Of a stretch of DNA of 64,000 nucleotides, positions 52,871-62,624 are shown piece by piece (position 1 is the stretch's first letter; the number at the start of each line of letters is the position of its first letter). The notes beneath the pieces are model-generated. The model did not search any database and was not told the DNA's origin. It worked only from the letters and a program-made list of their open reading frames with translations. Origin of the DNA: Zhongshania aquimaris (GTDB lineage: Bacteria > Pseudomonadota > Gammaproteobacteria > Pseudomonadales > Spongiibacteraceae); contig NZ_JAHWDQ010000001.1 in assembly GCF_019312595.1 (NCBI RefSeq), positions 186,001 to 250,000 of the forward strand, read 5' to 3'. A program made the position numbers and the translations under genes.

Positions 52871-53557
52871 CTATTGATCAACACTAATTCGCAGCGCTCC
52901 GCATATCGCTAAAGGCGCAAACGCCAAGGCCCCGAGAAAAAACACGCCCAACATAGCGAGCTGCGGTAAATAGGCGGCACCTTCTATTGCCGCTTTCACC
53001 GCGCTGCTGCCAAAAATAAGCACGGGAATATATAGCGGCAATACGATTAGCGACAAAAGCAGGCCGCCTTTGCGCAGGCCCACCGTTAATGCCGCACCAA
53101 TAGCACCGATAAAACTGAGCACACTTGTGCCCAGTACCAAACTCAACATCAACGGCACCGTCCCCTCACCGGGCAAATGTAATAGCAAGCCCAACATTGG
53201 CGACAGCAGGCTCAGGGGCAAACCTGTCACTAGCCAGTGCGCCAGTGTTTTAGCTAGTACTTGCGGATAAAGGGACTGATGAGTTAACAGCATTTGCTCT
53301 AGGGTAGCATCGTCAAAATCCCCACGGAACAAACTGTCTGTGGCAAGCAGGGAGGCCAGTAACGCCACCACCCACAAAATACCGGGTGCCAAGTCGGCGA
53401 GGCGGTCTGGCTGCGGGCCAATACCGAGGGGGAACAAGGCGCACACCATGACAAAAAATACCAGTGGATTCGACCACTCGCTACCACGTCGCAGTGAAGC
53501 GACAATGTCGCGATGCAAGACGGCTATGACTAGCTTTAGCAGTTTGGGCTCAGACAT
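52871..53557 (-). CDS. ccmB: Heme exporter protein CcmB
   Basis: 228 residues, six predicted membrane helices. Start set at the ATG at 53557 (MSEPKLLKLV), preceded by GGGGG and overlapping ccmA by 8 bp. The frame is open to 53599, but that would add an unusual 14-residue head. Permease of the CcmAB ABC transporter. Confidence 0.93.
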   Translation of the reverse strand: MSEPKLLKLVIAVLHRDIVASLRRGSEWSNPLVFFVMVCALFPLGIGPQPDRLADLAPGILWVVALLASLLATDSLFRGDFDDATLEQMLLTHQSLYPQVLAKTLAHWLVTGLPLSLLSPMLGLLLHLPGEGTVPLMLSLVLGTSVLSFIGAIGAALTVGLRKGGLLLSLIVLPLYIPVLIFGSSAVKAAIEGAAYLPQLAMLGVFFLGALAFAPLAICGALRISVDQ

Positions 53558-54185
53558 TGCTGGCCCCCAGCGCAATAACACTAAAATCTTGAGAGACACT
53601 AAGTTTGTGATGCGTGGTTAGCAACACTGAACCGCCGCCACTCACAAATTCGCTAAGCCACTGTTCTATCTCGCACACACCACCTTGATCTATCGCGGTA
53701 AAGGGTTCATCGAGAATCCAAAGCTGCGCCGGAATACAGAATAAACGCGCCAAATTTACTCGGCGCTGCTGCCCCGCCGATAGTGAGAAACACGGCTGTT
53801 CTTCAAAGCCACGCAGACCAACTTTATTTAAAGCGTCAAGAAGCACGACATCGCTATTTTCCGCACCGCGCAGGGCACATGACCATCGCAAATTTTCAAG
53901 TGGGCTAAGTACTGCTTTGATACCAGCGCCGTGACCGATATAAAGCAATTGCTGTAAATAGTCATGACGGTTCTTTTGTAGGGATTTTCCCTGCCATAAA
54001 ACCTCACCACTGTAGCGGCTCGATAAGCCAGCCAAAATACGCAATAAACTGGTTTTACCGCTGCCGTTGGGACCGGCAATTTGTAACAGCTGGCCTGCAT
54101 TGAGCTGAAAGCTCAAATCGGAAAACAGCACCCGATCATCACGATCAGTGTATAGCTGTTTAACTTCCAAGCCCGAATTTAGCAA
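53550..54185 (-). CDS. ccmA: Cytochrome c biogenesis ATP-binding protein CcmA
   Basis: 211 residues, ABC ATPase. Walker A GPNGSGKTSLLRILAG (about 38-53), signature FSLSAGQQRRVNLARL, Walker B LWILDEPFTAID. Powers release of holo-CcmE from CcmC. First gene of the operon ccmABCDEFGHI. Confidence 0.96.
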   Translation of the reverse strand: MLNSGLEVKQLYTDRDDRVLFSDLSFQLNAGQLLQIAGPNGSGKTSLLRILAGLSSRYSGEVLWQGKSLQKNRHDYLQQLLYIGHGAGIKAVLSPLENLRWSCALRGAENSDVVLLDALNKVGLRGFEEQPCFSLSAGQQRRVNLARLFCIPAQLWILDEPFTAIDQGGVCEIEQWLSEFVSGGGSVLLTTHHKLSVSQDFSVIALGASNV

Positions 54186-54471: not shown

Positions 54472-55368
54472 TCAATTCGGTTTGGTATCGCCGTCACTGC
54501 TTCGATCATGCGCCCAAGCTTCAAAGTCCTGAGTCACCAAATCGAGATACGTCAGCGCTTTGTCTAGCTCTTCAGAATATCCCTTGGCATGAAACTTCAT
54601 TAACCGCTGCCTCACCCAACTCAACTCGCGCACTAAATTAAGGGCATCGCCCTCTGCCGTTCCGGGCGTATCGCTGAGCCCGCTCAAGGTAGCCAAGGAC
54701 TCACGGGTAAGCGTAGCGACCGCACTATCTATCGACTCGAATCCTTTCGGTGAGTCCAGCGGAAAGTTATCCGCAGTGCCTTGCTCAAACTGCCGGGTTG
54801 CAAGCACATCAGTGCCTTGCTTTGCTTGCAGGGGTTCAAAACGCGTCTTTTCATAATGTAAAACTGAGGGGGCTATGCTCGCGAGCTGATTGTCGCGAGG
54901 CTGTAAACGACCATCAAAAAAGACACCCATGGTATCAAGTGATGATTCCACTGGGTTATTAGCCGCTGCTTCATTATTGTTGCGCTCCGCTGCTCGCAAT
55001 AAACGCGCTTTTAATTCTTTATCGACTGGCCGCGGCGGCTGATGGTTTATACGACGCGCCAACATCAATTCCAGGCTACCAATTGCCGCCACTAATAATG
55101 ACACTAAACTCGGTGTTATTGACACACGGCGAGTCCGCACTCGCTCCATTACTCGTTCCGTCAACTGAGCGCATTCAGCCAATTCGGGCATATTCAACAC
55201 GGTTGCACCACCGTGCAGAGTATGAAATCCACGATGAATATCATCGAGTATGCGCTGACCGTCGTAACCGTAATGCAATTCCGCCAACTGTTCCGACAGG
55301 CGTTGAACAATCTCCTCCGCTTCCGCAAGGAAAATCGCCAAAATACCTTCGTGTTCGTGCTCGTTCAC
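54472..55368 (-). CDS. CheA P1 (Hpt) domain protein without kinase
   Basis: 298 residues. Residues 1-120 match the phosphotransfer domain of Pseudomonas-type CheA: FLAEAEEIVQRLSEQLAEL, then IHRGFHTLHGGATVLNM with His49 in the phospho-acceptor position (His-Thr-Leu-His-Gly-Gly, where CheA usually has Lys-Gly-Gly), and ELAECAQLTERV. The dimerisation, ATPase and CheW domains of CheA (normally 600-750 residues) are absent. Residues 130-235 look disordered; a helical C-terminus (LVRELSWVRQRLMKFHAKGY) follows. It sits between a CheY-like gene and ccmA, where cheA lies in Pseudomonas. The 238 bp upstream hold a GTATTAATAC palindrome and possibly a separate promoter. It cannot autophosphorylate, so it needs another phosphodonor or acts unphosphorylated. 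Confidence 0.8.
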   Translation of the reverse strand: MNEHEHEGILAIFLAEAEEIVQRLSEQLAELHYGYDGQRILDDIHRGFHTLHGGATVLNMPELAECAQLTERVMERVRTRRVSITPSLVSLLVAAIGSLELMLARRINHQPPRPVDKELKARLLRAAERNNNEAAANNPVESSLDTMGVFFDGRLQPRDNQLASIAPSVLHYEKTRFEPLQAKQGTDVLATRQFEQGTADNFPLDSPKGFESIDSAVATLTRESLATLSGLSDTPGTAEGDALNLVRELSWVRQRLMKFHAKGYSEELDKALTYLDLVTQDFEAWAHDRSSDGDTKPN

Positions 55369-55606
55369 ACAGGGGCCTATTTAAAATGGTGTCGCCGAAA
55401 ATCCGAGTTGGCGATGTCAGACATCAATGTCACTCAGGGTAGGTACGCCCTTCGTCCAATCGGTATTAATACTAATTATCCACATTTAATTGGCGCTAGG
55501 CTGCAAGGTCGGTCACATTCCAGCATTTTCGGCCAGACAATTTGAGCTAGGAGTCATGTTTCTAGATAGAAGCTTGCTTATTGCTTGGAAAAGGCACTGC
55601 CAAGAC

Positions 55607-56077
55607 TTACGCTTGCCGATCAATAATCGAAAGTATTTTGCTTTCCAACGTCGCGGCAGTAAAAGGTTTCACCATATAAGCGTTCACACCAGCTAGCGCA
55701 GCTTCAATAATTTGTTCGCGCTTGGCATCGGCGGTGATCATCAACACGGGGATATGACTTAAGTTTGCATCGGCCCGAATCGCTCGCAGCAAATCTAATC
55801 CAGACATTCTTGGCATGATTAAATCGGTAATCACAAAGTCAAAACGCTGATTATGAAGCATAGGTAGTGCCGACAGGCCGTCCTCTGCCTCGCTAATATA
55901 GCGATAGCCTAGGTCGGTAAGTAAGTTGCAAATAATACGTCGCATAGTCGAGAAGCTCTCCACCACCAAGATACGCATCTCAGCCGGTGAGGAAAACACC
56001 GAATTAATTGGATCACTCTCGTCACTACCTATGCCAAATGGATTCGGCGATAAGTTGTCTAGATCTTCATCGCTCAT
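55607..56077 (-). CDS. CheY-like receiver with altered acidic pocket
   Basis: 156 residues. Acidic N-terminal extension of 33 residues, then a single receiver domain very like CheY (MRRIICNLLTDLGY, EAEDGLSALPML, MITADAKREQI, VKPFTAATLE). The phospho-acceptor Asp85, Thr115 and Lys137 (CheY Asp57, Thr87, Lys109) are kept, but the Mg-binding acidic pair Asp12-Asp13 of CheY is Glu40-Ser41 here. Phosphorylation may therefore be weak or absent. The start overlaps the ATPase stop by 4 bp (ATGA), which supports the long start. It occupies the cheY position of a pseudomonad flagellar cluster. Confidence 0.88.
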   Translation of the reverse strand: MSDEDLDNLSPNPFGIGSDESDPINSVFSSPAEMRILVVESFSTMRRIICNLLTDLGYRYISEAEDGLSALPMLHNQRFDFVITDLIMPRMSGLDLLRAIRADANLSHIPVLMITADAKREQIIEAALAGVNAYMVKPFTAATLESKILSIIDRQA

Positions 56078-56916
56078 TTGCTATTTGCCAACGCGCCACC
56101 GGAACGCGAGCTTGCCGCTAGCAGTTGCTCAACAAAAAACACCAAATGACCTTCCGCCTTGGCAGGTAGCGGCCACCGCTTAGCCTGCTTTGCAAAATCG
56201 CGCAGCGCTCTCGCCGAAATACTACTTGGCGCAGCCAGAACAACCGCCGTCTGCTGGCGCACCGAGTCTCGCAATTTAGTATCGAAGGGTACGGCGCCAG
56301 CGTAGATCAAACCCACATCCAGAAACTGGCCGCAAACCTGATTTAAACTGTCAAAAAGTTGCCGACCTTCTTGTTCGTCTGCAACCATATTTGCCAAAAT
56401 TCGGAATCGGCTGCGGCCAAAGTCGCGGCTAAGCAGCTTAATCAGTGCATAGGCGTCAGTAATGGAACTCGGCTCATTGCAAACCACCATGACCACTTCG
56501 TGTGCAGCGCTGAGAAAATTCACTACCGAATCTGAGATTCCTGCGGCGGTATCAATTACCAGCACATCTAATTGATTGGCGATATCGCTAAAGGCGCGAA
56601 TCAATCCAGCGTGCTCAAGCGAACTCAGCATACTTAAACGCCTTGTACCCGACGATGCTGGAATAATTTTGATGCCCGCGGGGCCATCTAACAATACTTC
56701 TTCGAGTGTGCACTGGCCATCAAGCACCTGCTCAATAGTATTGCTCGCCTTTAAACCAAGTAAGACATCCACATTAGCCAAGCCAAAGTCGGCATCCAAT
56801 AACACCACGCGCGCGCCACCTTCAGCCAGCGCGACGCTAAGATTTATAGCGACATTGCTTTTACCAACGCCGCCTTTGCCACCACTTACCGCTATGACTT
56901 GGATTTGGCGTGTCAT
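56074..56916 (-). CDS. flhG: FlhG/FleN-type MinD-like ATPase
   Basis: 280 residues. Deviant Walker A KGGVGKS (14-20), LDADFGLANVDVLLG (about 40-54, FleN-type switch I), and VIDTAAGISDSVVNFL. This matches FleN/FlhG, which sets polar flagellar number, binds FliM and restrains FleQ/FlrA. The N-terminal DQAxxLR motif that stimulates FlhF in Bacillus is absent, and no flhF gene is present. Overlaps both neighbours by 4 bp, so it is translated with the switch-protein genes. In the absence of a flagellum in this locus it may place or load the FliM/FliN ring (inference). Confidence 0.88.
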   Translation of the reverse strand: MTRQIQVIAVSGGKGGVGKSNVAINLSVALAEGGARVVLLDADFGLANVDVLLGLKASNTIEQVLDGQCTLEEVLLDGPAGIKIIPASSGTRRLSMLSSLEHAGLIRAFSDIANQLDVLVIDTAAGISDSVVNFLSAAHEVVMVVCNEPSSITDAYALIKLLSRDFGRSRFRILANMVADEQEGRQLFDSLNQVCGQFLDVGLIYAGAVPFDTKLRDSVRQQTAVVLAAPSSISARALRDFAKQAKRWPLPAKAEGHLVFFVEQLLAASSRSGGALANSK

Positions 56917-57479
56917 GAGGGCTCCGCAGTAGATTTAGGTTTGCTGTAAATATTTTCTCGCCAGGGAAAACCCCACATCCTGTGAGTGTGCTCGCCAATT
57001 TGCTCCACTTTACACATCGCCATAATCTTCTTTAACAGACGCTGATCTACTTCTTGAACATCAATTAAAAGCACGAACAAATTATTTTCTGCATATGGCC
57101 GGTAGTCATCTAGCGCTGAATTTTCTTGCATTAACCCTAACAAGCCCCCCTCCCACGCACCAAAAAACAGTAGGGTCAGGGGTAGCGAATACAGAACAAT
57201 ATCGCGAGCTATGCCTGCATCAATTTGAAACAGCGCAAACGAAATCACCACCAGCAGCCACCCTAAACAAAGCCCCCAAAAGCCACCACGCCATGCGCCA
57301 CCAAGCATATTGGTCAACAGAAGCGGGCTTGCCAATGGCAGCCCGAGACGCTGAACCTCTGCCCTTGCTTCAGTAAATATTCGCCACCGCCAACCCTGTA
57401 AATGGGGTTGATTTAACATTTCCACAATCTCGCAGAGATTTGCTGTATCACGACTCAAAAACACCAGCCTACGCCTCAT
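56913..57479 (-). CDS. Membrane protein of unknown function in the switch-like operon
   Basis: 188 residues from the ATG at 57479 (GGGAG ten bases upstream; ATG at 57506 or GTG at 57524 are alternatives). A short soluble N-terminal part (RRRLVFLSRDTANLCEIVEM) resembles the ferredoxin-like start of DUF1269-type proteins. A Gly-rich membrane region with two or three helices follows (about 55-115, TNMLGGAWRGGFWGLCLGW), then a second ferredoxin-like strand-helix (NLFVLLIDVQEVDQRLLKKI). I do not recognise a function. It replaces, in position, the export genes fliO to flhF of a flagellar cluster, and its stop overlaps the FlhG-like start. Confidence 0.7.
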   Translation of the reverse strand: MRRRLVFLSRDTANLCEIVEMLNQPHLQGWRWRIFTEARAEVQRLGLPLASPLLLTNMLGGAWRGGFWGLCLGWLLVVISFALFQIDAGIARDIVLYSLPLTLLFFGAWEGGLLGLMQENSALDDYRPYAENNLFVLLIDVQEVDQRLLKKIMAMCKVEQIGEHTHRMWGFPWRENIYSKPKSTAEPS

Positions 57480-57546
57480 TATTTTTGTTCTCCCACCTAT
57501 GGCCATTTGGTATTCGCCACCCACATCTAACTATGCGGACATATCA

Positions 57547-57966
57547 TCATCGCAAGGATTGTAAACGCTCCGCTTGACTGACCACCTCTGTAAGCCGAAT
57601 GCCCAATTTATCTTCAATCACTACCACTTCTCCGCGAGCGATAAGCGTGCCATTTGCCATCACATCCAAAGGCTCGCCCGCCATACGATCAAGCTCCACA
57701 ATAGCGCCTTGATGCAGCTGCAGTAGATCTCGAATCGGCATATCACTCCCCCCTACCTCCAAGGTAAGTCTCACGGGAATATCCATCACCATTGATAAAT
57801 CTGGACCGGGCGAATTTCGATCGCGAAGTCTCGCTGCGGGGCCGTCGACCTCCACCTGCCTCTTACGCCCAGCCTCGCCTGCGTGTTGAATACCGGCTCG
57901 GTCGGCCGCTTCCATTTCCTCTTTCAAATTTTGTCGCTGACGACGAAGCTCGTCTTGCTTATCCAT
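57547..57966 (-). CDS. fliN: FliN-like flagellar switch protein
   Basis: 139 residues. A charged helical N-terminus (1-50) leads into a SpoA/FliN domain (about 57-139) with almost textbook sequence: MVMDIPVRLTLEVG, IRDLLQLHQGAIVELDRMAG, then NGTLIARGEVVVIEDKLGIRL. Length equals E. coli FliN (137). In flagella FliN forms the base of the C-ring with FliM and docks the export ATPase complex via FliH; no fliH or fliI occurs here. It lies 93 bp downstream of the FliM-like gene in the same direction. Confidence 0.93.
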   Translation of the reverse strand: MDKQDELRRQRQNLKEEMEAADRAGIQHAGEAGRKRQVEVDGPAARLRDRNSPGPDLSMVMDIPVRLTLEVGGSDMPIRDLLQLHQGAIVELDRMAGEPLDVMANGTLIARGEVVVIEDKLGIRLTEVVSQAERLQSLR

Positions 57967-58059
57967 AATATTTCAATCTCTTGGTAACCATTTAACAATC
58001 AAGGTCCGGATCACTATACAACCGTTTTACGTATACTTAGGCAGTACATACAAGGCAAC

Positions 58060-59016
58060 TTACTCAGCAATTTTGAGGGCTAAAAAACCATTTACCACGC
58101 CCAGCTGTGCCCGTGCCATTGGCACCCCAGACACTTTTATCACCGATAATTCACGACTACTAAAGGGGATCACATCGCCAACCTGCAGGGCAGCTATCTG
58201 CCCTAAACTCATCACTGGCTCCGCCAATGTGCAGCGGGTAGGCACACTCATATCCATCACAGATTGGCTCAAGTTGGTATGCCACAGCGAGTTGCCACCG
58301 AGCTGCTCAGCAGATTCAGTCTTACTTAATGATTCCAACACAGGTTCTAGCATCGCCAACGGCAGGGCAATATTAAATTCACCGCCACCGCCACTATCCA
58401 GCTCAATCTGAAAACGGCTAACAACGACAATTTCAGACTGACCAGCAATTGACGCCATGGCCGGATTCACCTCCATTGCCAGCGACTCGCAGCTGATCGC
58501 ACTCACCAAGCGCCAAGCGCGGTCATAGTCTTGATGGGCGCGGTCGATTAACCTGCTAATAACTCGACGTTCTACCTTACTAAAATCCCTGCCGTCAGCA
58601 TGACCCTGAGTACCGTTGCCGCCGAAAAACATATCCACCAAACGAAATACCAAGCGCGCGTCAAAAACCACCATCGCCGTCCCGTTTAAAGGATGTAAAC
58701 GCATGAGGTTTAGCGATGTGGGAACATACAATGAATGCAGGTATTCGCTGTAGGGTAAAAACTGAAGGTCAATAGCGGCGACATCTAGGCTTTGCCCTAA
58801 AACTTCGGAAATACTATCGCGGAAATATTCTGAAAATCTTTTATTGATGTGCTCTAAGCCCGGTAAGCGGCGTTTTTTCAAGCGTCGCCGGCTAGCTAAA
58901 TCAAAAGAGCGGGCATCGACAGAGGATAAAGTACTAGCCTCGGCTCGCGGCGTTTGCGCCTGCACATTCGCCAACAACGCATCGATTTCTGCTTGGGAGA
59001 GTAAATCCTTCACCAT
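58060..59016 (-). CDS. fliM: FliM-like flagellar switch protein
   Basis: 318 residues from the ATG at 59016, giving the FliM-typical N-terminus with LSQAEIDALL at 6-15; this segment binds CheY-P and, in Shewanella, FlhG. The CheC-like middle domain has MFFGGNGTQG, DFSKVERRVISRLI and GEFNIALPLAMLEP. The C-terminal SpoA domain (SLGQIAALQVGDVIPF, GVPMARAQLGVVNG) is complete, but the last 15-20 residues of E. coli FliM are missing. A TTG at 59061 would prepend 15 unrelated residues and is rejected. All ring-forming domains look intact. Confidence 0.92.
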   Translation of the reverse strand: MVKDLLSQAEIDALLANVQAQTPRAEASTLSSVDARSFDLASRRRLKKRRLPGLEHINKRFSEYFRDSISEVLGQSLDVAAIDLQFLPYSEYLHSLYVPTSLNLMRLHPLNGTAMVVFDARLVFRLVDMFFGGNGTQGHADGRDFSKVERRVISRLIDRAHQDYDRAWRLVSAISCESLAMEVNPAMASIAGQSEIVVVSRFQIELDSGGGGEFNIALPLAMLEPVLESLSKTESAEQLGGNSLWHTNLSQSVMDMSVPTRCTLAEPVMSLGQIAALQVGDVIPFSSRELSVIKVSGVPMARAQLGVVNGFLALKIAE

Positions 59017-59132
59017 TACGCCTATACCGCACTTTCTAGGAGAGTACAGCGTATTTAGCAAGACTCACGCCAATTATTTATTATGTAAATCAATGACTTA
59101 AAAAATCGGAATGCGTCAAAAAATTGACTCTC

Positions 59133-59477
59133 CTATTTGACGCCCTCTAACCAGCGGCGAATTGAGAGCATCGCTTCCGCAAAGCTACGCTGGGTATTAC
59201 TGAAATCCTGCTGAATATCACAAAAGCTCGCATCTCGGCCACGCAACTCCAATCCACGGAAATGTTGAGATAGATTTTCTGCGCCCAAGGACGCGGCACC
59301 GCCTTTCATGGTATGTGCCATTGTTCGCAGCGTCTCTGCATCTTGATCTTGAATTGCTTTCTCGACCAGGCTTAAGCGCTCTTGAGTATCAATTTCAAAC
59401 TCATCAATGAGGGTAAAAACATCTTCTTCCATAAAATCACGGAGCTCTTCGAGTACCGCAAAATTCAAAGTAGGCAT
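59133..59477 (-). CDS. Single-domain Hpt phosphotransfer protein
   Basis: 114 residues, four-helix Hpt fold. His55 in MAHTMKGGAASLGA is the phospho-acceptor, with the Lys-Gly-Gly that usually follows. No kinase or receiver is fused. It lies between the FliG- and FliM-like genes. In P. putida, as I recall, an Hpt gene also sits between fliJ and fliK, so this may be the same ancestral gene with its neighbours deleted. Candidate partner: the CheY-like receiver at 55607-56077. Confidence 0.88.
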   Translation of the reverse strand: MPTLNFAVLEELRDFMEEDVFTLIDEFEIDTQERLSLVEKAIQDQDAETLRTMAHTMKGGAASLGAENLSQHFRGLELRGRDASFCDIQQDFSNTQRSFAEAMLSIRRWLEGVK

Positions 59478-59620
59478 ATGCTTAAACGTCCTTGTTTAAC
59501 TCTGTTTATTTAAAATATTAATAGGTGTTACAAAAAGCGTTATTGTGGAGGAAAATTCTGTATTTTAGTATTCAAAACTAACCTCTCATGACATTTCGTC
59601 AATACAATCCGATAGCGAGA

Positions 59621-60616
59621 CTAAAACACATCTATTTTACGTGCGTCTAGAATGATTTCCCCCACCGCGGCCATTTGTCTCGCCACACTGACAACCTCCG
59701 CTTGCGCAGCATGAGCTTCTGCCTGTGTAAATCGACGAGACAAGGCCATGATTTCATGTTTTTTATCGTCACTTACCGCACTTAAAAATCGACGGCGGAG
59801 CAGCGCGCCGGCTTCTGCTAAGGCTGGCGCCATTATCTCTGGGGCAAGCTGCTTTGCGAGAATCACGATATCCTGCTCTGCCATATTCGCAATTTGGGCA
59901 AAGCCGAACATTAACTCTTCGACTCTCGCAGCCTGCTCAGGCTGGCTCGCTCGCAAACCATTGAGCAAATTACTTTCCGCACCAACGTCCATTTCATTGA
60001 GGAGAGCCGCCGCCAAAGAGTCGCCTGTCATTGCCCGACCAAGTGGCCTACCCACATCACTAAAATAGTGCTCCAACAACCAATCCAACTCTTCAAGTGC
60101 AGCCGGAGTTAAATTTCTTAAACTTGATAAGCGACCCAGCAAGTCTAAGCGTCGCGACTCCTCGAAAGCGAGCAACACCTCGCTGCCCTGCCTCGGCGCC
60201 AAACAGGCGATCACAACCGCCTGAATTTGTGGATGCTCGCGACGAATGATATCCACAATGGTATTGGGTTCTAACCATTTTAGTTTTGTGATCTGCCGAG
60301 ACTGGCTGTGCAAAGCCAAGCGATCTCCCAGCAGAGCTGCCCGCTCCTCGCCCAATGCTTCCTCTAACAAGCTAAGCACCGCATCACTGGCACTGGGTTT
60401 TACGCCGGAAAAGCTTTTAACATCAAGATGAAAACGAGCAAGAACCTGCTTAAACTCACCACTACTGGGCGCATCCATGCCACTCATTGCTGCCGCGATA
60501 CGATGGACATCGGCGGGTGGTAAAGCCCGCATGATTGAAGCGGCATGGCTTTTATCTAGCGACATAATTAACGCTGCCACTTGTTCAACATCAGATAGGT
60601 GAGTAGACGTGGTCAT
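59621..60616 (-). CDS. fliG: FliG-like switch protein lacking the torque residues
   Basis: 331 residues, same as E. coli FliG. N-domain (VAALIMSLDKSHAASIMRAL, about 13-32), middle domain with the diagnostic EHPQ at 127-130, C-domain with MFGF at 236-239 (MFVF motif) and VARQMAAVGEIIL near the end. By ungapped hand alignment to E. coli FliG (offset +3), the charged residues that meet the stator are all changed: Lys264 to Ala267, Arg281 to Asp284, Asp288 to Ala291, Asp289 to Leu292, Arg297 to Glu300. The fold and ring contacts look preserved while stator coupling is lost. Start ATGA overlaps the FliF-like stop. Confidence 0.88.
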   Translation of the reverse strand: MTTSTHLSDVEQVAALIMSLDKSHAASIMRALPPADVHRIAAAMSGMDAPSSGEFKQVLARFHLDVKSFSGVKPSASDAVLSLLEEALGEERAALLGDRLALHSQSRQITKLKWLEPNTIVDIIRREHPQIQAVVIACLAPRQGSEVLLAFEESRRLDLLGRLSSLRNLTPAALEELDWLLEHYFSDVGRPLGRAMTGDSLAAALLNEMDVGAESNLLNGLRASQPEQAARVEELMFGFAQIANMAEQDIVILAKQLAPEIMAPALAEAGALLRRRFLSAVSDDKKHEIMALSRRFTQAEAHAAQAEVVSVARQMAAVGEIILDARKIDVF

Positions 60617-61305
60617 TTAAGCGGAGTCCCATTCAGCCACCCGCTCAATACACTCGCAACACGCGCGGGCTCTTCTTGGGCTATCGACTTAAATCGCAGC
60701 AACTGATCTCGATAATCGTTTTCTAATTGCAAGGTTTTTGCCCTGATCTTACGGTAATGGTGGAAAAGCAAAACCGAACCGATTAGGCCAAGTAAAGAGA
60801 TACCAACGCCGAGTAACATCCGTTGTGACGTGCTAAGTCCAAACTTTTCATAGGCTGCGTCATTGATGCTGGGAAAGGGATGAAACCGCACCACTAATTG
60901 GTCCCCGCGGGCTGAATTCATCGCCAAACCCGCACTTACCAAGCTTGAAAGTGGCTCTTCAATGCGATTATCTGGCTGCGCGCGGTCAATGATTAACAAT
61001 ACGGATTTGAGCTCCGCTGCTTGGTCAATCGCGCTGGCACTTTCAACCTGAACTGATACCTTAATATCAGTTGCGGGCAGCAGTGAGGTCGCCAAAGCAA
61101 GTACTTTGCGCTCAAGACTCGCTTCACGCTGGCTGCGCGGATCATTTGCGATAAGCTCATCTCCAGTACTCCCGTTAAAGCGCCATTGCTGCAAAGCCGC
61201 TTCAAATAACACACTGCCGCCAAGAGCTAAGCACAGCGTGACCGACACCAAGGCGCACAGTGTTGCCGCAGAAAATGACCTCAGCCCTACCTCTTCTTCG
61301 TCCAC
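60613..61305 (-). CDS. Miniature FliF-like membrane ring protein
   Basis: 230 residues against about 560 for FliF. TM1 about 11-34; a periplasmic part (62-144) that matches only the core of ring-building motif 3 (LERKVLALATSLLPATDIKV; then SVLLIIDRAQ, SAGLAMNSARGDQLVVRFHPF); TM2 about 162-181; a cytoplasmic tail whose end (FKSIAQEEPARVASVLSGWL, 206-225) looks like the FliG-binding tail. RBM1, RBM2 and the beta-collar of FliF are missing, so it cannot form the normal MS-ring housing of the export gate. GTG start with GAGGG upstream. It is the first gene of the operon and overlaps FliG by 4 bp. Confidence 0.8.
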   Translation of the reverse strand: MDEEEVGLRSFSAATLCALVSVTLCLALGGSVLFEAALQQWRFNGSTGDELIANDPRSQREASLERKVLALATSLLPATDIKVSVQVESASAIDQAAELKSVLLIIDRAQPDNRIEEPLSSLVSAGLAMNSARGDQLVVRFHPFPSINDAAYEKFGLSTSQRMLLGVGISLLGLIGSVLLFHHYRKIRAKTLQLENDYRDQLLRFKSIAQEEPARVASVLSGWLNGTPLK

Positions 61306-61435: not shown

Positions 61436-61452
61436 TGTCAAAATATTGACAG
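61436..61452. promoter_or_regulatory. FleQ-like operator, site 1
   Basis: TGTCAAAATATTGACAG contains GTCAAAATATTGAC, matching 12 of 14 positions of the FleQ consensus I remember from P. aeruginosa (GTCAATAAATTGAC). It is itself a near palindrome (TGTCAA-N4-TTGACA). It lies 131 bp upstream of the FliF-like start. Binding by FleQ/FlrA is inferred. Confidence 0.6.
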
Positions 61453-61479: not shown

Positions 61480-61496
61480 CTGTCAATATTTTGACA
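61480..61496. promoter_or_regulatory. FleQ-like operator, site 2 (exact inverse of site 1)
   Basis: CTGTCAATATTTTGACA is the exact reverse complement of the 17 bases at 61436-61452; centres are 44 bp apart, about four helical turns. Two oriented dimer sites on one face of the DNA fit a looped or cooperative regulator complex such as FleQ with FleN. Confidence 0.6.
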
Positions 61497-61715
61497 TAAA
61501 GAACCCGAAGCCCAGACAAACTACCGTAACCATCACCAGTAAATTGTTAATCTGTATGGATAAAGCAGTAATTGGGCCACTATTGGCAACGCGGAAGAAG
61601 GGTCAACAAAACAAGTGGAGATAAGGACAGGGGCAGCCGCGGGCAAGCTATGCAGGAATGGCAGAATTACGCAAAATAATAGCGGTTACAGAAACCCCGA
61701 AACCGCCCAAGATAT

Positions 61716-62624
61716 TTATCTCAATTCAGTCAGCTCTATGAAATTACTGCGCTCGGCGGGCTGAGATGACGACGGCAGACCACCCGCATCAATCGTTTGA
61801 GTGGAGTCGAACTCATACTCTTTGCGCTCACCTGTGCGATCTATCGTCAGCGAGGCAAAATCAAACAAATTGGAATCAGCCATCTGCGAAGGAGCGATAT
61901 TTTGCATGGAAGAAAAGATCTTCTCTATGCGGCTGCCATCCATCCTCTCCCAGTCCATCAACATTTTGCGAATATTCTGACGCTGGAGATTTTCCTGAGA
62001 ACCACAGAGATTGCAGGGAATAATCGGAAACTCCTTGTGCGCGGCAAATGCCTCGATATCGGTTTCTCGACAATACGCCAGCGGTCGAATAACAATATTG
62101 CGCTTGTCATCAGAGAGGAGTTTTGGCGGCATTCCCGACAAGCGTGAACCGTAGAACATATTTAAAAATAGGGTCTGCACGATATCGTCTTTGTGATGAC
62201 CCAGAGCTATTTTTGTGGCGCCAATTTCTTCCGCAAAGGCGTATAGCGTGCCGCGGCGAAGACGTGAACACAGTCCGCAAGTTGTCTTACCCTCTGGGAT
62301 TTTCTGCTTAACTATAGAGTAGGTGTCTTTGTTAACGATGTAGTATTCAATACCCAAGGCATCTAAATAATCTGGCAGCACGTGCTCCGGGTATCCCGGC
62401 TGCTTCTGATCCATATTGACCGCAATCAGCTCGAATTTTACCGGCGCGCTTTTTTGCAAGTTCATCAGAATATCGAGCATGGTATAGCTGTCTTTGCCAC
62501 CAGACAGGCAGACCATCACGCGGTCGCCCTCTTCGATCATTTTATAATCTTCAATCGCCTGCCCGGTATGGCGGCGTAAACGCTTTTGAAGTTTATTGAA
62601 TTCAAGTTTTGGCAAACTAGACAT
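61716..62624 (-). CDS. ttcA: tRNA 2-thiocytidine(32) synthetase
   Basis: Thiolates C32 of certain tRNAs with ATP and a [4Fe-4S] cluster. 302 residues. PP-loop [13 protein letters not shown] (about 35-47) and two Cys pairs, [11 protein letters not shown] and [28 protein letters not shown] follows as usual. ATG at 62624. Monocistronic, divergent from mdh, with no evident link to the switch-like operon. Confidence 0.95.

Follow-up and report, generated by a model that had tools for sequence, protein, structure and literature searches.

Why should a bacterium keep the switch genes of a flagellar motor in an operon that encodes no motor? The question is raised by a 64,000-nucleotide stretch of the Zhongshania aquimaris genome (contig NZ_JAHWDQ010000001.1, positions 186,001 to 250,000), hereafter the window, in whose numbering positions are given unless another contig or locus is named. 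A minus-strand block at 54472-61305, hereafter the module, consists of nine open reading frames with ttcA on one side and ccmA on the other. The frames are intact and run one way, with three 4-bp start/stop overlaps (fliF'/fliG, P6/flhG and flhG/cheY), as an earlier prediction made from this DNA (the original prediction) had described. That prediction was also right in seeing a switch operon without motor, export or rod genes, which is intact and under purifying selection. The identity of the module as a second, partial, motor-less switch set that is conserved in the family is well supported. One reading, at somewhat better than even chances, is that of a stand-alone, torque-free, intracellular switch of the cytoplasmic ring (C-ring) type, built from a mini FliF or a FliF-FliG fusion with FliG, FliM and FliN. 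Its readers would be phosphotransfer proteins and a CheY-like receiver, joined in one genus by FlhG, and it would be kept family-wide beside an unrelated, complete flagellar set.

The Pfam cut-offs were passed by FliG (three domains), FliM, FliN, a CheY-like receiver, two histidine phosphotransfer (Hpt) domains and a MinD/ParA-type ATPase; genes 1 (fliF') and 6 (P6) had no family match in Pfam, and fliF' had none in NCBIfam either. Curated profiles support the C-ring set (FliG N, M and C, FliM and FliN) in Pfam, and in NCBIfam with FliG excepted: FliM passed as an equivalog (253 bits against a cut-off of 219.6), the FliN domain passed too, and FliG stayed under its equivalog cut-off (135 against 226.7). 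The switch proteins were thus as recognisable as predicted, but the FliF-like gene holds only the C-terminal third of FliF.

On the minus strand, the operon runs from fliF' (60613-61305), in which that third stands behind an N-terminal hydrophobic stretch, to fliG' (59621-60616), with FliG_N, FliG_M and FliG_C, EHPQ retained and the torque charges gone. There follow the gene for an HptB-like histidine phosphotransfer protein (Hpt1; 59133-59477; Pfam Hpt match), the name HptB being the one that we take to apply, then fliM' (58060-59016; Pfam and NCBIfam), with its N-terminal LSQAEIDALL retained, and fliN' (57547-57966; Pfam and NCBIfam). P6 (56913-57482), of no family and with two hydrophobic stretches by eye, precedes the gene for the FlhG'/FleN' ATPase (56074-56916; Walker A intact) and that for the CheY-like receiver (55607-56077), which has E-S for D-D in its acidic pocket and retains D57, T87 and K109. 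The last gene (54472-55368) encodes a long-tailed protein (Hpt2) that has just the P1 (Hpt) domain of CheA and in which the phospho-acceptor His is retained; only the P1/Hpt part of CheA was matched, and P2-P5 and the kinase domain had no match. From the alignments, FliM and P6 probably start further in than their listed frames (which open at 59061 and 57524), at GTG 59016 and ATG 57482, respectively.

In a tblastn search (1e-5) of the window and 19 related loci with 45 flagellar and chemotaxis proteins, no matches to export, ATPase, rod, hook, filament, stator or kinase-core proteins were found, as the original prediction held for the block itself. The matches obtained were to FliG, FliM, FliN, FlhG, CheY and CheA (Hpt part), or to receiver and ParA paralogues, only. 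P6 is the sole module part without a flagellar counterpart; a distant paralogue (19-21% identity) lies on contig 1 at 1325.8 kb. In five relatives P6 had looked like a pseudogene (in-frame stops; a short frame in locus L074). This was discarded, since the stops fall in the upstream extension of the listed frame and, by alignment and frame reading, the relatives' frames are open when read from the inner start.

Two FliGs were present in 20 of the 21 family genomes, the remaining genome, with no FliG at all, being 70% complete. All 19 second-FliG neighbourhoods fetched carry the block on one strand between ttcA and ccmA (in the window, 61716-62624 and 53550-54185, both on the minus strand). The survey of relatives that had been proposed thus found the block, in the same setting, in 20 of the 21 genomes with the window's included, and ttcA flanks all 20 module loci. 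The FliG, FliM, FliN and CheY frames were open in 19/19 related loci. Parts common to both genera (genus 1 and genus 2 below) are FliF-FliG, FliM, FliN, CheY and the P1 protein. Hpt1 and FlhG were not found in the two genus-2 module loci, and P6 was not found by tblastn in genomes G014, G001 and G002 (G001 has a doubtful frame of 21%). In an order sample of 194 genomes, two FliMs were seen in eight genomes, all of the own family, one in 129 others and none in 57. A class sample gave two FliG matches in G072, G242 and G295, which belong to other families and may hold further second sets, and two FliM matches in several more genomes, so that modules may also exist outside the family.

The ratio of nonsynonymous to synonymous substitution rates (dN/dS) was taken from three closely related pairs, three further pairs having been dropped with many saturated dS values. 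It was 0.04-0.10 for FliG, 0.03 for FliM and 0.05-0.06 for FliN (two pairs), 0.03-0.04 for FlhG, 0.02-0.12 for CheY, 0.01-0.19 for Hpt1, 0.06-0.29 for P6 and 0.12-0.28 for Hpt2, with 0.05-0.21 for the flanking CcmA. Synteny, open frames and dN/dS rule out a chance grouping or pseudogenes; the frameshifts and the dN/dS near 1 that the original prediction had named as contrary signs were not seen, the frames being open and the ratios low.

Immediately next to the module, three genomes of the family, of which one belongs to the other genus, share a stretch of 6.1-6.7 kb (L083:13789-20000, L088:605-6816 and L090:2624-8732) with 98% DNA identity. The genes in it are the greater part of ttcA, an AraC-type regulator and two for cytochromes P450; it is either a recent exchange or an assembly mix-up.

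The original prediction had supposed a switch complex without a flagellum, and here it failed. In this genome of 4.25 Mb (12 contigs, completeness 100%), a second FliG is encoded on contig 6, in a flagellar cluster (171-215 kb) with its own FliF, FliG, FliM and FliN as well as FlhA, FliI, FlgE, FlgI and flagellin. Further flagellar genes there were named from sequence. A chemotaxis cluster (CheA, CheW, CheB and a receiver) lies on the same contig at 470-482 kb, and a second one, on contig 5, includes a 1817-residue CheW-bearing frame; we take the latter, from its look, to be Chp-like. An ordinary flagellum that lacks its own ring, which the original prediction had named as the contrary case, is ruled out by the four ring genes of the contig 6 cluster. 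When ten contig 6 proteins were compared with NCBIfam, the curated cut-off was passed by FlhA, FlgE, FliI, FlgI, FliF, FliG and the FliN domain; the flagellin, FliM and CheA matched their families with scores under the cut-offs, so that the working FliM falls short although the working FliG passes.

Between module and working proteins, FliN is 58% identical over 92 residues, FlhG 46%, FliM 26% and FliG 23%. The working FliM (contig 6, 180819-181766) is itself an orphan, with less than 30% identity to every listed match outside the family among 369 class genomes; the same comparison, in which these matches lay at 20-29%, gave no donor of the working flagellum. Beside the working fliF lies a gene for a FlrC/FlbD-like sigma-54 activator (contig 6, 190346-191344), which at 332 residues is too short for a receiver domain.

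What the module has lost and kept was read from individual residues. The torque positions of FliG are presumably K264, R281, D288 and D289 in E. coli numbering. None of the 20 module FliGs has K at 264 (R in 3), R at 281 or an acid at 288 or 289, and the R297 position is R in one of them. All torque residues are kept in 13 control FliGs (two from working clusters and 11 others out of 13 sought), with one K to R exchange and E for D288 in three. EHPQ, the FliM-binding motif, is present in 20/20 module FliGs, and the FliM N-terminus reads [LM]SQxE[IV]DALL in 20/20 (the strict pattern in 19, MSQAEIDALL in the remaining copy). In Hpt1 the His and the HxxKG motif are kept in 18/18, and the phospho-acceptor His of Hpt2 in 19/20. 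At the lysine position of HxxK, the window's Hpt2 has His and most relatives have Tyr; Lys is seen only in the two genus-2 copies. Walker A was found in 18/18 module FlhGs. At D12, D13, D57, T87 and K109 the window's CheY has E, S, D, T and K; among the 20 module CheYs, D13 is Asp in 10, D57 is kept in 18, T87 in 17 and K109 in 17, and both genus-2 CheYs have the full residue set intact. Loss of the force-generating residues from genes that stay intact family-wide suggests that the switch is now a signalling device.

For fliF', a profile of 12 members (the window and 11 relatives) matched FliF positions 420-577 with a profile-profile probability of 97 and an E value of 1e-10, the latter from a search against a single target. 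The match covers the RGDxLxVxFHxF strand at the end of the third ring-building domain, then the second membrane stretch and last the tail EEPARVASVLSGWLN, which is the part that binds FliG. The first two ring-building domains (RBM1 and RBM2) and the collar are lacking, as the match starts at position 420. A fused relative, L087, gave a sub-threshold Pfam FliF_C match (E 0.0085). An AlphaFold2 (AF2) model of fliF' from the single sequence had low confidence (predicted local distance difference test score, pLDDT, 59.5) and adds nothing to the FliF match.

FliF and FliG are separate in the window and 11 other loci (of 20). In L087, L089 and L090 a FliF with a longer N-terminal part is fused to FliG; in L081-L084 two hydrophobic stretches (by eye) and the FliF tail are fused to it; in L088 the FliF tail alone is (382 residues). 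In-frame, natural FliF-FliG fusions of 426-564 residues are thus seen in 7/20 loci (L081-L084, L087, L089 and L090), and in 8/20 with L088. FliF was joined to FliG also in laboratory fusions, of which passages of PMC6079021 and PMC11481574 tell; those found here, in contrast, are natural.

The strongest rival to a separate signalling switch is that the module proteins are accessory rotor subunits, which join or exchange with the working C-ring and tune its switching or assembly. An ordinary FliG is encoded in 20/20 module genomes, the module FliN and FlhG have 58% (over 92 residues) and 46% identity to the working ones, and the genus-1 operon has a flagellar-type sigma-54 site (see below). FliG and FliM, however, share only 23% and 26% with their working counterparts, the module has a FliF tail of its own, which in 8/20 loci is joined to FliG, and the stator-facing charges are lost in 20/20 module FliGs, so that their insertion into the rotor should harm torque. 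This alternative is unlikely.

Where did the module come from? Eight clusters of sister families were read as frames and by tblastn. Their composite order begins fliF fliG fliH fliI fliJ ... hptB fliK fliL fliM fliN fliO-R and continues flhB flhA flhF flhG fliA cheY cheZ cheA cheB motCD ... ccmA ccmB ccmC. In all eight, those of fliM, fliN, flhA, flhG, cheY and cheA that were seen keep this one-strand order. FliM, fliN, cheY and cheA were each seen in eight clusters, flhG in seven, ccm in six (where ccmA marks the downstream end of the native cluster), hptB in five, fliG in three and fliF in one, fliG and fliF being mostly beyond the fetched stretch. The module's Hpt1 matched an Hpt gene upstream of fliM in 4/8 sister clusters by tblastn (29-36%), and in L239 by blastp. 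Eight native genes are thus retained, collinear at the ccm end, as fliF (C-terminal third)-fliG-hptB-fliM-fliN-flhG-cheY-cheA (P1 only), with one extra gene for a membrane protein. With the Pseudomonas-type polar flagellar-chemotaxis cluster that ends at ccm, the module shares gene order, the ccm-adjacent site, the type of its FliM, FlhG and CheY, and a sigma-54 site before the fliF gene; it differs in lacking the export, rod, hook, filament, stator and kinase-core genes, in a FliF reduced to one third and in the lost torque charges of FliG.

The FlhG tree placed the module FlhG with the FlhGs of the order (split 100/99) and the working FlhG with other gammaproteobacteria. The working FlhA also grouped with other gammaproteobacteria (100/99), and its placement inside the order was rejected (p 0.0205); two long rows had been left out of this tree and the tested group was chosen after a first tree had been seen. 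Median identity of FliM to named gammaproteobacterial loci was 42% for the window (80 loci) and 25% for the working protein (79 loci). The simplest history, fairly well supported by these comparisons, would be that of a native cluster whittled down after the gain of another flagellum. Whole-cluster duplication, in which the module would be no native remnant but a decayed copy with kinship to the working cluster, is improbable: the approximately unbiased (AU) test on FlhG does not reject a sister relation between the module protein and the working one (p 0.158), but the module agrees in place and gene order with the ccm-linked cluster seen in the sister families, the working FlhA is rejected from the order, and the window's FliM is the nearer of the two to the named ones.

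The region before fliF' holds a sigma-54 promoter-like site, TGGCCCAATTACTGCT (61564-61579, minus strand), and two FleQ-box-like palindromes, TGTCAATATTTTGACA (61481-61496) and TGTCAAAATATTGACA (61436-61451), given in plus-strand reading. A sigma-54-like site is similarly placed in 18/18 genus-1 loci (one with TGGT). Downstream of it, TGTCAN6TGACA palindromes with up to two mismatches occur at least twice in 17/18 of these loci and once in L080; in an alignment of seven near relatives, the spacer around the promoter-like sites is poorly conserved. The exact palindrome is found twice in the window, where 0.02 would be expected, and the genome has it at six places (two for the reversed control pattern). 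The module palindromes fit the FleQ boxes GTCaNTAAAtTGAC and GTCAaAAAAtTGAC proposed for P. aeruginosa and P. putida in a passage of PMC6120874, and would be putative sites. FleQ, according to the same source, acts with RpoN at fliEFG. Two FleQ-type activators are encoded in the genome, one in the contig 6 flagellar cluster and one, FleQ-a, outside it (contig 6, 296.5 kb). The best solved relative of FleQ-a is P. aeruginosa FleQ, and orthologues were found in 18/18 genus-1 genomes; a search with the Pfam FleQ domain gave weak matches only and missed FleQ-a. In three genus-2 genomes (two incomplete) FleQ-a was not seen, the best matches being weaker, and the two genus-2 module loci have neither sigma-54 site nor boxes; the joint absence of FleQ-a, module FlhG and promoter sites from genus 2 counts as a single evolutionary contrast. 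The module resembles the FleQ-FleN (FlrA-FlhG) circuit in having FlhG/FleN in the operon, putative FleQ-type boxes and a putative sigma-54 site before it, and a FleQ encoded outside the working flagellar cluster; it differs in that the operon encodes no flagellum and that genus 2 is without these parts.

A role of FlhG and switch proteins outside swimming has a precedent. Passages of PMC3228812 report that in Campylobacter jejuni division at the poles is inhibited by FlhG together with proteins of the motor and switch; the complex there is also the working rotor, whereas the set described here is separate, and the window's genome encodes MinC as well. The module could be a polar landmark or division-site regulator, its switch complex and FlhG marking poles or blocking FtsZ there, and MinC was not found in 4/21 family genomes (G014, G001, G002 and G003); two of the four are nearly complete, and three have the module. 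MinC and the module nevertheless occur together in the window's genome and 16 others, and of the MinC-less carriers G014, G001 and G002 both genus-2 ones lack the module FlhG; we hold this explanation to be doubtful at best. As a replacement for Min the module is rejected, MinC being present in the window's genome and in 17 of the 21 family genomes. A relic in slow decay, without selected function, could account for the stepwise shrinkage of FliF', the erosion of the CheY pocket in several species and the loss of FlhG and Hpt1 in genus 2, but is very improbable in view of the open frames of FliG, FliM, FliN and CheY in 19/19 relatives, dN/dS values far below 1 and similar to those of the ccm flanks, and genus-1 promoter-like sites that are conserved where the surrounding spacer is not.

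The best explanation, to which we give an even chance, is that selection has preserved the skeleton of the native cluster as a platform for signalling that exerts no torque. An ancestor would have come to depend on another complete flagellum and chemotaxis system, and its native cluster would then have shed the export, rod, hook, filament, stator and kinase-core genes, while the rotor/switch proteins, HptB, FlhG, CheY and CheA P1 were retained in place and order. FliF', or the FliF tail fused to FliG, would hold FliG, and EHPQ would let FliG bind FliM/FliN in a ring or part-ring. The FliM N-terminus would be bound by the CheY-like receiver and, in genus 1, by FlhG too, with phosphoryl groups delivered by the two Hpt proteins. 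The state of this mini-ring would be altered by the CheY-like and Hpt proteins and, in genus 1, read out via FlhG and FleQ, and there a sigma-54 promoter that carries FleQ-type boxes would drive the operon. FlhG (= FleN) would have FliM and FleQ as alternative partners, and the amount of it still free to hold FleQ back would depend on how far the mini-ring is assembled or on its signalling state. P6 is a candidate output part in genus 1. Passages of PMC12826062 describe FlhG as binding the FliM N-terminus and restraining FlrA/FleQ, and in V. cholerae and P. aeruginosa flagellar kinase activity needs FliF and FliG (PMC7064773). The static ring that senses a phosphorelay and FlhG, as first proposed, would agree with four features of the sequence: the missing torque charges, the retained FliM N-terminal motif, the retained Hpt histidines and the promoter.

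Several observations weigh against this reading. An ordinary FliG occurs in all 20 module genomes, and the module is therefore not separable from flagellation. The G014 module keeps no membrane part, so membrane anchoring is dispensable there, and FliF' is the fastest evolving part (dN/dS 0.20 and 0.33 in two pairs). With CheY D13 non-Asp in 10/20 and D57 lost in two, phosphorylation is not required everywhere. In genus 2 the module is without FlhG, HptB, FleQ-a and promoter sites, and FleQ feedback is thus not a family-wide function. As to control, the sigma-54 core by itself is common (13 matches in the window); the FleQ box predicts poorly and is unreliable in P. fluorescens, as stated in part of PMC6120874; and of 16 clusters, most from other orders, with enough DNA before fliF, a box was present in 2 and a sigma-54 core in 13. 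Before the working flagellar operons the palindromes amount to one with a single mismatch (fliF) and few with two, and with so few of them shared control is not demonstrated. As to origin, the AU tests on FlhG reject neither the sister grouping given above nor a native working FlhG (p 0.418). FliG identity to named loci runs opposite to that of FliM (window 31.5%, working 44%), which is attributed to fast change of the module FliG. In the FliM tree the module forms one clade (99) whose placement is open, its position being weak because of long branches.

The flagellar C-ring (FliG-FliM-FliN) is among the nearest known systems: all three proteins are present, domains included, and both EHPQ and the N-terminal motif of FliM are kept. 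The module differs in having no torque charges, none of the periplasmic domains of the membrane-supramembrane (MS) ring except the last, and no stator or export partner in the operon. In the C. jejuni switch complex, too, as far as the cited passages go, switch proteins and FlhG act in a non-swimming role. According to part of a survey (PMC12199754), rotor genes without a filament occur in 11% of non-motile species, and another function was raised there as a possibility. In the family described here rotor genes likewise occur without the remainder, but in one conserved operon beside a complete second flagellar set. No described system of such composition was found in the literature searched.

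For the family, deletion has already done part of the experiment, and the surviving parts and their order are visible: the torque residues were dropped, and the FliG-FliM contact, the FliM N-terminus and the phospho-acceptor histidines were kept. The family further offers, as a series found in nature, FliF proteins reduced to different degrees and fusions of FliF to FliG. Since the flagellum has its own rotor genes, the functions of the switch could be studied here separately from rotation.

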